A stretch of 64,000 bases of DNA, taken from the NCBI RefSeq assembly GCF_007988905.1, contig NZ_BJVA01000002.1:62001-126000 (forward strand), written 5' to 3'. Below, one piece after another: positions 7,601-8,846 of this stretch. This stretch comes from Gluconobacter kanchanaburiensis NBRC 103587 (GTDB lineage Bacteria > Pseudomonadota > Alphaproteobacteria > Acetobacterales > Acetobacteraceae). Within the stretch, counting starts at the first letter, position 1; each line of letters opens with the position of its first letter. The notes under the pieces were generated by a model. That model saw nothing but the letters and a program-made list of their open reading frames with translations. It ran no database searches and was not told where the DNA came from. The translations under genes and the position numbers were made by a program.

Positions 7601-8239
7601 AAAAATCTGGACTTCAAGGTGACGTGCGCGTTCGATGTATTTTTCGACGAAAACGCCGGAATCACTAAAATTGTTCTCGCCCAGCTGCCGAACAGTCTCA
7701 TAGATTCCAACGAGTTCCTCCTCGGTCCAGCAGACGCGCATCCCGATGCCACCGCCCCCGGCAGTGCTCTTGAGCATTACCGGATACCCCACCCCGGCCG
7801 CAGCCTGGCGGGCGTCTTCCACGGACTGAAGCAGAGGAGAGCCCTGCAACAGGGGAACGCCCTGCGCACAGGCAAGAGCACGCGCCTCATGTTTCAGGCC
7901 AAAGGCCACGAGTTGCCCTGCCTCTGGGCCAATAAACCTGATCCCCGCAGCCTCACAGGCGTCAGCGAAAGCCGCATTCTCCGATAGGAAACCATATCCA
8001 GGATGAATCGCCTGCGCACCCGTCTCAAGGGCAATTTCAATGATACGCTTTGCATTCAGATAGGTCTGCGAAGGACCGCCCTCTCCGAGAGAGACCGCGA
8101 TATCTGCGTCTCTCACATGCAGACTCGCCACATCCGCTTCGGCATAAACCGCAACTGAGCCGATGCCCATCTGTCGTAACGTTCTGATGATCCTGCACGC
8201 GATTGCACCACGGTTGGCAATAAGGACGCGATCAAACAT
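4643..8239 (-). CDS. Biotin-dependent urea/guanidine carboxylase
   Basis: A single-chain carboxylase of about 1,198 residues. Domain order: biotin carboxylase (from [16 protein letters not shown], with the Gly-rich ATP-grasp loop [10 protein letters not shown] and [12 protein letters not shown]), about residues 1-450; AHS2/KipA-like carboxyltransferase half ([20 protein letters not shown]) about 460-770; AHS1/KipI-like half about 800-1060; and biotinyl carrier domain with VLESMKIE near the C-terminus (Lys biotinylated). The family was named urea carboxylase. Members next to DUF1989 proteins and ykkC RNAs are now known to act mainly as guanidine carboxylases, and this copy sits in that context, so guanidine is the likely substrate. 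I prefer the ATG at 8239 ([10 protein letters not shown] opening); an in-frame ATG at 8254 would add five residues. Neither has a good SD, and a leader ORF overlaps this start. No symbol is given because urea versus guanidine is not proven. Confidence 0.92.
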   Translation of the reverse strand: [1198 protein letters not shown]

Positions 8240-8282
8240 GGCGCGACAATCCATATGATGAGCGGGAAAGGAAAGGTGTCAT
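8232..8282 (-). CDS. Possible leader ORF overlapping the carboxylase start (16 aa)
   Basis: Reading ATG at 8282, the frame encodes MTPFLSRSSYGLSRHV and stops at TGA 8234-8232, a few bases inside the carboxylase gene (ATG 8239). A good SD, ACCGGAG, lies 10 nt before the ATG, whereas neither carboxylase start has one. That fits translation of the leader followed by re-initiation. The mirror-image arrangement occurs on the plus strand before the permease, with the same ACCGGAG and the same 10-nt spacing. No homology supports the peptide; it may be a chance ORF. Confidence 0.35.
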   Translation of the reverse strand: MTPFLSRSSYGLSRHV

Positions 8283-8340
8283 GGCTTCGAAACTCCGGTC
8301 ACACGTACGCCAAACAGCCTTACAGGCCGCTACGGCTTTC

Positions 8341-8435
8341 ATCTCCCGGGCTTTTGTCCCGCCGTGTAACCTCGAAGCCGAGGCCGCGTGCTCTCGGACC
8401 AGACTCCCAACATTCATTGGGGCGGAACCCTAGCG
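8341..8435 (-). ncRNA. Guanidine-I (ykkC) riboswitch upstream of the carboxylase
   Basis: Read on the minus strand from 8435 to 8341, the sequence carries the conserved blocks of the guanidine-I class in order: CTAGGGTTCCG, a variable hairpin (CCCAA-TGAATG-TTGGG), CTGGTCCGAGAG, a second hairpin (CCTCG-GCTT-CGAGG), then ACACGGCGGGA and AAAGCCCGGGAG with the closing CGGG/CCCG stem. This class binds guanidinium and turns on guanidine export or degradation genes. Its 3' end is about 100 nt before the carboxylase start, with the leader ORF between. Sequence matches are direct; function follows from the class. Confidence 0.93.
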
Positions 8436-8587
8436 CGCCATTGCCATCAATCTTGTTCCGTTCAGAAAACGGGTCAAGGAGAAATTCAATGTTTCGCGCG
8501 GATTTTAATCCGGAAAGAGAATCCGTTTTCCGATCGCAATATTGCCCTTGCAACTTCATACCATGACCGATATGAAAATATGAAAGC
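8436..8587. promoter_or_regulatory. Divergent promoter region between the two guanidine riboswitches
   Basis: The 152 bp between the two riboswitches must hold both promoters, since the RNAs point outward. Two symmetric elements are visible: AAAACGG (around 8466) with its inverted partner CCGTTTT (around 8523), and a short palindrome GGATT-TT-AATCC at 8501-8512. They could be operator sites for a nitrogen or other regulator. I found no convincing sigma-54 -24/-12 pair and cannot assign -35/-10 boxes with confidence. Confidence 0.5.
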
Positions 8588-8681
8588 CGCTAGGGTTCCG
8601 GTCCAGTTTTTCTGGATGGCTGGTCCGAGAGCGCGCGGCCTCGGCTTCGAGGTTACACGGCGGGACAAAAGCCCGGGAGAT
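8588..8681 (+). ncRNA. Guanidine-I (ykkC) riboswitch upstream of the permease-deiminase-AtzF operon
   Basis: Plus-strand copy with the same conserved blocks: CGCTAGGGTTCC (8588-8599), variable hairpin GTCCAG-TTTTT-CTGGAT, CTGGTCCGAGAG (8620-8631), hairpin CCTCG-GCTT-CGAGG, then ACACGGCGGGA and AAAGCCCGGGAG. Positions 8620-8681 match the minus-strand copy (8341-8402) at 61 of 62 bases, while the variable hairpin differs in sequence but still folds. Downstream, ATGGCG (8697-8702) can pair with CGCCAT (8726-8731). A further hairpin near 8732-8752 includes the CCGGAG that serves as SD for the leader ORF, which suggests control by SD masking. Confidence 0.94.
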
Positions 8682-8762
8682 ATTGAGATGCCGGAAATGG
8701 CGTCGCATATCTTTCGTGATGTGTGCGCCATCTCCGTCTGAATAGACCGGAGAAGAACGACA

Positions 8763-8846
8763 ATGAAGCCGACTTTATGTCTTCTCGCCCAGGCCTGTAG
8801 CCGGAAACGGCGGGGCTGTTCACTCACGGCTCGGTACGTCCGATGA
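8763..8846 (+). CDS. Possible leader ORF overlapping the permease start (27 aa)
   Basis: ATG at 8763 opens a 27-codon frame beginning MKPTLCLLAQACSR; its TGA (8844-8846) overlaps the permease ATG (8843) as ATGA. ACCGGAG lies 10 nt before this ATG, while the permease start has no visible SD, so translational coupling is plausible. A partly paired hairpin covers the SD just downstream of the riboswitch. The peptide has no recognised homology and is Arg/Cys rich; it may act only as a translated leader. Confidence 0.35.
   Translation: MKPTLCLLAQACSRKRRGCSLTARYVR

Follow-up and report, generated by a model that had tools for sequence, protein, structure and literature searches.

Two Guanidine-I Aptamers Between Divergently Transcribed Guanidine Genes

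The 64,000 bp stretch of the Gluconobacter kanchanaburiensis NBRC 103587 genome analyzed here (contig NZ_BJVA01000002.1, positions 62,001 to 126,000; hereafter the window) contains two divergently transcribed gene groups with a probable role in guanidine uptake and breakdown, separated by an intergenic region with a guanidine-I (ykkC) riboswitch aptamer on each strand. On the minus strand, a 1203-codon open reading frame (ORF; 4643–8254, with the start more likely at 8239) matches the TIGR02712 "urea carboxylase" model with 1798.9 bits against a cut-off of 1303.85. The plus strand carries an APC-type permease (8843–10363; PF13520), whose best NCBIfam match, TIGR03428, scores 521.8 bits and lies under its cut-off of 740.45, followed by two carboxyguanidine deiminase subunits of the DUF1989 family, UAAP1 (10413–11150; TIGR03425, 296.4 bits) and UAAP2 (11163–11798; TIGR03424, 313.9 bits), and by an allophanate hydrolase, AtzF (11826–13652; TIGR02713, 747.6 bits), the last three all scoring over their cut-offs. 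Residue 709 of the carboxylase is Asp, the aligned position in yeast urea carboxylase being Asn1330. According to a 2025 review (PMC12186494), this residue tells the two enzymes apart, Asp being typical of guanidine carboxylases and Asn of urea carboxylases, so that guanidine is the most likely substrate of the window enzyme. The guanidine-type Asp, both deiminase subunits and the allophanate hydrolase, by which the pathway was recognized, are thus all present.

An Rfam 15 scan over all 64 kb returned exactly two matches at gathering score, both to the RF00442 Guanidine-I model (gathering score 63 bits) and both covering model positions 1–107 of 107. The carboxylase-side aptamer lies on the minus strand at 8341–8444 (89.7 bits, E 8.4e-15) and the permease-side aptamer on the plus strand at 8580–8681 (88.4 bits, E 1.7e-14), so that the pair is real and far above chance (E about 1e-14). 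Each aptamer scores above the gathering score over its whole length, and each lies on the same strand as, and just upstream of, genes of the probable guanidine pathway, the carboxylase on the minus side and the permease-UAAP1-UAAP2-AtzF series on the plus side. The two are inverted near-copies, 94% alike over 69 nt, and an RF00442 search of the same genome yielded only these two matches and no third.

The first-pass annotation, made from the sequence of the window, had assigned both strands to the ykkC/guanidine-I class and proposed an RF00442 scan as a check, and the scores above bear that assignment out. The four conserved blocks on which it relied are present a single time on either strand of the window: CTAGGGTTCCG from 8590 (plus) and 8433 (minus), CTGGTCCGAGAG from 8620 and 8402, ACACGGCGGGA from 8655 and 8367, and AAAGCCCGGGAG from 8668 and 8354. 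It had also read the minus-strand aptamer toward the carboxylase and the plus-strand aptamer toward the permease, UAAP1, UAAP2 and AtzF, with one sensor per transcription unit; the directions agree with our gene assignments, and the covariance-model scores and gene families back the one-sensor reading. The 588-bp gap that it measured (8255–8842) stands if the carboxylase starts at 8254, but 8239 is the likelier position of the conserved start.

Distribution of the Divergent Layout

Close divergent pairs of RF00442 matches were found in seven genomes of acetic-acid bacteria: the window genome (G000), Gluconobacter roseus (G007), a Gluconobacter metagenome-assembled genome (MAG; G017), Gluconobacter sp. 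Dm-62 (G019), G033, Acidomonas methanolica (G127, the same genome also being reached as G060) and G466; the loci of roseus, Dm-62 and the MAG are L011, L012 and L013, respectively. Among 26 Gluconobacter genomes, four are RF00442-positive and all four have the divergent pair; the same four, out of 26, have a full-length carboxylase (over the cut-off in three, split over two contigs in one), riboswitch pair and carboxylase thus co-occurring. Sampling was carried out at family, class and phylum level within a single phylum, with a few other phyla represented through 41 genomes reached via matching loci. An RF00442 match was present in 21 of 397 genomes of the family sample, with a close divergent pair in four of these 21; in 31 of 385 genomes of the class sample, with a pair only in the window genome; and in 43 of 398 genomes of the phylum sample, with a pair in two, the window genome and G1122. 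The 41 locus-derived genomes included 29 with a match and one, Acidomonas, with a pair.

G1122 belongs to the Burkholderiaceae, of which 77 of 299 genomes have a match, 37 have two matches and 25 of these 37 have a divergent pair, with a gap of 364–534 bp in all 25. By genus, 23 of the 25 fall in g533 and two in g571. The G1122 gap is matched by plasmid-collection records of Burkholderia cenocepacia, B. pyrrocinia and B. stagnalis, and of Paraburkholderia over 22% of its length; from these records we infer that g533 is Burkholderia. In the two records for which gene context was inspected, G1122 (locus L182) and an annotated B. pyrrocinia record (L217), the pair lies between a transporter binding protein, of the NMT1 type in L182, and a UAAP1-UAAP2-carboxylase series. 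Four further Burkholderiaceae genomes (G1379, G1391, G1214 and G1448) have two RF00442 matches pointing apart with about 3 kb between them, an arrangement that may be intermediate to the close pair or derived from it.

The first-pass annotation had suggested that the layout might be undescribed. No paper listed in the full-text searches could be recognized, by title or the opening of its abstract, as describing it, but uniqueness has to be rejected, given that the layout recurs in other acetic-acid bacteria (seven genomes in all) and in 25 Burkholderiaceae genomes. The arrangement is a real, conserved and recurrent use of a known riboswitch class and not a new kind of system.

Origin and Separate Conservation of the Two Sides

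Across the seven acetic-acid-bacterial genomes, permease-side aptamers are 79–99% alike and carboxylase-side aptamers 70–100%, against 71–85% between the two sides of one genome. A small tree of the 14 pair aptamers and 18 non-pair aptamers of the same family, several supports of which are weak, groups all 14 pair members together (0.907) and places the carboxylase side in a clade of its own (0.985). By these comparisons the two sensors form separate conserved lineages, and what fits best is a single inverted duplication that predates the divergence of the genera, after which each side was conserved on its own; alternatively, the entire cluster may have been transferred from one genus to another. 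The neighboring genes of the acetic-acid-bacterial and Burkholderiaceae pairs differ, which suggests that the layouts of the two groups arose separately. The two Acidomonas copies have the same P2 loop (GGTGTTCGGGG; locus L185), unlike the Gluconobacter loop (compare window positions 8341–8409 and 8613–8681), a hint that inverted copies may be homogenized within a genome.

Putative Promoters and the Permease-Side Leader

The 135 bp between the two aptamers contain a putative promoter for each direction. On the minus strand, TTGACC (8477–8472) and AAGATT (8454–8449) are separated by 17 nt, giving a putative carboxylase promoter at 8449–8477; on the plus strand, TTGCAA (8548–8553) and TATGAA (8571–8576), likewise 17 nt apart, form a putative permease promoter at 8548–8576. 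CTTGAC on the carboxylase side and TTG[CT]A with TAT[AG]AAA on the permease side are kept in all seven aligned genomes. If these assignments are right, the transcripts would start near the aptamers and would not overlap.

Downstream of the permease-side aptamer, a near-invariant stretch is found in the seven genomes, and its core, GCCGGAAATGG, is flagged in the permease-side leaders of all seven pairs and in no other among the leaders listed (of 143). This block permits two mutually exclusive folds. In the proposed OFF fold (8675–8715, plus), the aptamer end GGGAGATAT (8675–8683) pairs with ATATCTTTC (8707–8715) around an inner stem, GATGCC/GGCGTC (8687–8692/8699–8704). In the proposed ON fold (8693–8735, plus), GGAAATGGCGTCGCATATC (8693–8711) pairs with GATGTGTGCGCCATCTCC (8718–8735), taking up the strand that would otherwise cover a Shine-Dalgarno (SD) sequence in a proposed hairpin at 8732–8752, formed by CTCCGTCT (8732–8739) and AGACCGGAG (8744–8752) with CTCCG facing CGGAG. 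Over the seven genomes, 94.4% of the 126 cells of the ON hairpin are paired.

The ribosome site concerned is that of a 27-codon leader ORF (8763–8846, plus), which is preceded by CCGGAG and whose TGA overlaps the permease ATG as ATGA. A 4-nt overlap of this kind (ATGA or GTGA) with a permease start is available in six of the seven genomes (window, roseus, Dm-62, MAG, G033 and G466), in which the leader ORF, counted from the start aligned to that of the window, varies between 27, 28, 30 and 31 codons; in Acidomonas, where the leader ORF is 40 codons long, its stop falls 9 nt short of the next in-frame ATG. In the window, G033 and G466, no in-frame start precedes the overlapping one. No SD-like sequence precedes the window permease start, so that its leader has both features by which a coupled upstream ORF (uORF) is recognized, an NUGA overlap and an SD-less main start.

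A possible first small ORF of 17 codons (8688–8741, plus), the SD of which would be the GGGAG of the aptamer itself, precedes the leader ORF. Eight of its codons (MPEMASHI...) are kept in all seven genomes, nearly at the DNA level (one synonymous change), and its stop differs in G466 and G033. Conservation of the peptide was considered and is not decisive, RNA structure explaining it equally well. An automatic scan of 138 leaders for uORFs with an NTGA overlap, run without shuffle control, found 12 by its own, looser rule and missed the window on account of SD spacing; at least one of the 12 (L184, plus) lies inside a carboxylase gene, and the count carries little weight.

We also asked, against shuffled sequences, whether each leader has a strand with two possible pairing partners, the ribosome site and a segment farther upstream, a test that about 5% of any group would pass by chance. 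At p ≤ 0.05, this shared-strand test was passed by 12 of 28 acetic-acid-bacterial leaders versus 15 of 105 others, the 12 comprising five near-identical permease sides of pairs and seven non-pair leaders, some of them mutually related. Five of the six scored permease sides passed (window p 0.01), the G466 permease side, with its TTG start, and the G033 carboxylase side being unscored.

The seven passing non-pair leaders from the same family (L106, L107, L111, L112, L116, L121 and L123) have sequences unlike the permease block, and L107 and L121 resemble each other. Two of them, L116 and L123, have 15-codon SD-led ORFs downstream of the aptamer with an ATGA overlap to an in-frame start of the next ORF (no control was run). 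Leader-ORF coupling may, on these sequence features, be wider among acetic-acid-bacterial guanidine-I leaders.

The Carboxylase-Side Leader

On the carboxylase side, the proposed OFF pairing (8297–8371, minus) joins the aptamer core GGTTACACG (8371–8363) to CGTGTGACC (8305–8297), which adjoins GGAG (8296–8293). A test for contiguous helices with the ACACGG region placed a 9-bp helix at the same position in six of the seven carboxylase sides, with p values of 0.017–0.05 that are not independent; G033 gave p 0.68, and 20 of 140 leaders reached p ≤ 0.05. The contiguous-helix test was used because duplex energies between the aptamer core and the sequence downstream had proved uninformative, shuffles too forming long composite duplexes. 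A short leader ORF of 16 codons (8232–8282, minus) extends 7 nt beyond the A of the probable carboxylase start codon; leader ORFs of 16–18 codons are present in five of the seven genomes, Acidomonas having an in-frame extension and G033 neither. The two sides hence appear to read one ligand through different platforms, although the mechanism on the carboxylase side is the weakest part of the model set out below.

A Model of Guanidine Control and Its Alternatives

Our preferred reading, to which we give an even chance, is that both aptamers belong to switches turned on by guanidine, with the permease switch working at the level of translation by way of the leader ORF and the carboxylase switch using another platform. 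From a divergent promoter pair in the 135-bp spacer, two non-overlapping mRNAs would arise, each starting with its own guanidine-I aptamer. Without guanidine, the 3' end of the permease-side aptamer (GGGAGATAT) would pair downstream, freeing ATCTCC to cover the ribosome site of the leader ORF; with guanidine, the aptamer would retain its 3' end, the long hairpin would capture ATCTCC and the 27-codon leader ORF would be translated, after which the ribosome would re-initiate at the permease start, which overlaps the stop of that ORF (ATGA). For the carboxylase, the segment directly before the ribosome site would pair with the aptamer core. Guanidine would then switch on both units, co-inducing the carboxylase and the uptake and downstream enzymes with no need for a protein regulator. 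Computation supports this reading in part: the aptamers, the genes and their orientation, their conservation and the ORF overlap in the window are computed results, while the promoters, the response to guanidine and its sign, both switch folds and the translational coupling are proposals.

A number of results weigh against this reading. Earlier in-frame permease starts exist in roseus, Dm-62 and the MAG (for example, ATG at +96/97 and GTG at +153/154), the overlapping start in these genomes being our choice among several, and shuffles keeping frame and NTGA context reached the exact overlap in 38–55% of trials; the weight of the overlap therefore rests on frame and NTGA being kept through changes in leader-ORF length. 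The ON hairpin has no two-sided change in the seven genomes, only one of 28 consensus pairs shows one, and the consensus promoter scan found neither putative promoter and a single site elsewhere (0.4 expected). The G033 permease side failed the shared-strand test (p 0.44), as did all six scored carboxylase sides (p 0.41–0.83). Contiguous helices with the aptamer end CCCGGGAGAT reached p ≤ 0.05 in one of seven permease sides and in six of 140 leaders, as expected by chance, the best OFF helix of the aptamer end giving p 0.067–0.27 in six of the seven permease sides and 0.017 in G033. Folding, too, mostly failed to show the switch. Locking P3 raised the openness of the window permease SD from 0.01 to 0.60 in the shortest fragment only, the effect being reversed in longer ones, and changed it by at most 0.11 in the other six permease sides. 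Withholding GGGAGAU moved the fold to the full ON hairpin in three of seven genomes, with an SD openness of only 0.10–0.17, and in the window, which was already in the ON fold, lowered openness from 0.60 to 0.39. On the carboxylase side, locking P3 reduced SD openness from 0.92 to 0.29 in the window, opposite to the model, and from 0.49 to 0.20 in Acidomonas (shortest fragment in both cases); G466 rose at all three lengths and Dm-62 only at the shortest. Simple unmasking of the SD through P3 locking is thus not generally supported, its folding effects being partial and inconsistent, and a translational model is retained on the strength of the shared-strand test together with the ORF overlap rather than of folding energies.

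The literature adds a further point to this side of the balance. Guanidine-I is usually described as transcriptional, which favors the main alternative: that both switches are ordinary transcriptional ON switches in which the polymerase stops in the leader, at an intrinsic or Rho-dependent site, the leader ORFs being incidental. We regard this as a serious possibility, if one with less than an even chance. It can draw on the lack of clear folding support for SD unmasking, on a terminator-like flag at 8687–8704, and on the flavin mononucleotide (FMN) riboswitch of G. oxydans, for which the authors saw reads suggesting termination without a clear intrinsic terminator and cite that terminator-less riboswitches can terminate. 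That flagged site is, however, the lone one on the plus strand and stands at chance level (0.8 expected in shuffles), none is found on the minus strand, and the TTT following ATATC is lost in four of the seven genomes. An intrinsic terminator, a usual though not obligatory guanidine-I feature, was, beyond this weak site, found on neither side, and simple intrinsic terminators on both sides are not favored, given a chance-level site and no conserved terminator tail. The leader-ORF overlap available in six of seven genomes also speaks against the ORFs being incidental.

The near-identity of the two aptamers invites two other explanations. With 94% identity over 69 nt, one copy could be redundant, that is, a decayed or constitutive product of the inverted duplication beside a single working aptamer; yet the two scores differ by no more than 1.3 bits, conservation across genera is separate for the two sides, and promoter-like sequences are conserved on both sides, and we consider this improbable. 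The same 69-nt inverted repeat flanks a core holding both putative promoters, and could in principle act as DNA, recombination flipping the core and swapping promoters between the operons. All seven genomes, though, keep side-specific 5' halves, GCCGCTAG or GCAGCTAG on the permease side and GCGCGCTAG on the carboxylase side, with no flipped version among them, making an invertible promoter core very improbable indeed.

Neighboring Genes

Beyond the allophanate hydrolase, a response-regulator/LuxR-type ORF (13604–14845, plus; PF00072, PF00196) has its first listed start within the end of the allophanate hydrolase gene and is a possible further member of the operon. No link to guanidine was seen for three other genes of the window: an efflux outer-membrane protein (119–1693, plus), a fatty-acid-hydroxylase-family protein that is OlsE-like but under the cut-off (3430–4473, minus) and a TPR-sulfotransferase (14852–16522, plus).

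Relation to Known Systems and Biological Meaning

The window aptamers belong to the known Guanidine-I (ykkC) class, matching RF00442 over its full length above the cut-off and preceding guanidine-pathway genes; they differ from its usual form in that two copies lie on opposite strands of one intergenic region, with platforms that appear unlike. In the full-text literature searched, which leaves most subscription journals outside its coverage, none of the papers listed could be recognized, by title or the start of the abstract, as dealing with divergently paired guanidine-I riboswitches or with a uORF in a guanidine-I leader, and the combination of riboswitch, divergently transcribed and guanidine gave no paper. 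The Burkholderiaceae pairs (G1122 and L217) share the two RF00442 aptamers pointing apart, but have a larger gap, other neighboring genes and aptamers of 120–138 nt versus 101–110 nt in acetic-acid bacteria, and the acetic-type permease block is not flagged in L182.

Two guanidine sensors in one guanidine cluster are also reported for guanidine carboxylase operons that combine guanidine-I with guanidine-II, in Vreelandella boliviensis (PMC12508155) and in Erwinia rhapontici and Klebsiella michiganensis (PMC12186494). There the classes differ, and guanidine-II is found within the same series of genes or farther along it, whereas the window has two sensors of the same class on divergent transcripts. 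Tandem riboswitches, such as the guanine-phosphoribosyl pyrophosphate (PRPP) pair (PMC5912903), likewise bring two aptamers close together but in one transcript and with a logic gate; the window aptamers, being on opposite strands and pointing apart, are not such a tandem and would serve two transcripts with one ligand. The closest worked precedent for the permease leader is the B12 riboswitch of Mycobacterium tuberculosis ppe2 (PMC11260477), in which the stop of a uORF overlaps the start of a main gene without SD (AUGA), as on the window permease side, and translation of the uORF was shown to be essential. That riboswitch has another ligand and class, is an OFF switch and comes from an unrelated organism, and the window leader ORF is a predicted one.

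What is new here is a variant in layout, and possibly also in platform. That a guanidine-I riboswitch acts on translation through a coupled leader ORF beside a sister on a different platform, so that a single metabolite would govern import as well as carboxylation by means of two RNA switches, each tuned independently, is a tentative proposal that we hold to be rather unlikely as a whole. The divergent layout seems to have arisen at least twice, in acetic-acid bacteria and in Burkholderiaceae. The permease leader is a natural case in which to ask whether guanidine-I riboswitches can work at the level of translation and by way of leader ORFs, unlike what is usually described for them, and the natural pair allows two platforms to be compared with the same ligand in the same cell. 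The layout, recurring in two bacterial families, suggests how two copies of a single RNA sensor could govern an entire divergent metabolic cluster with no protein regulator.

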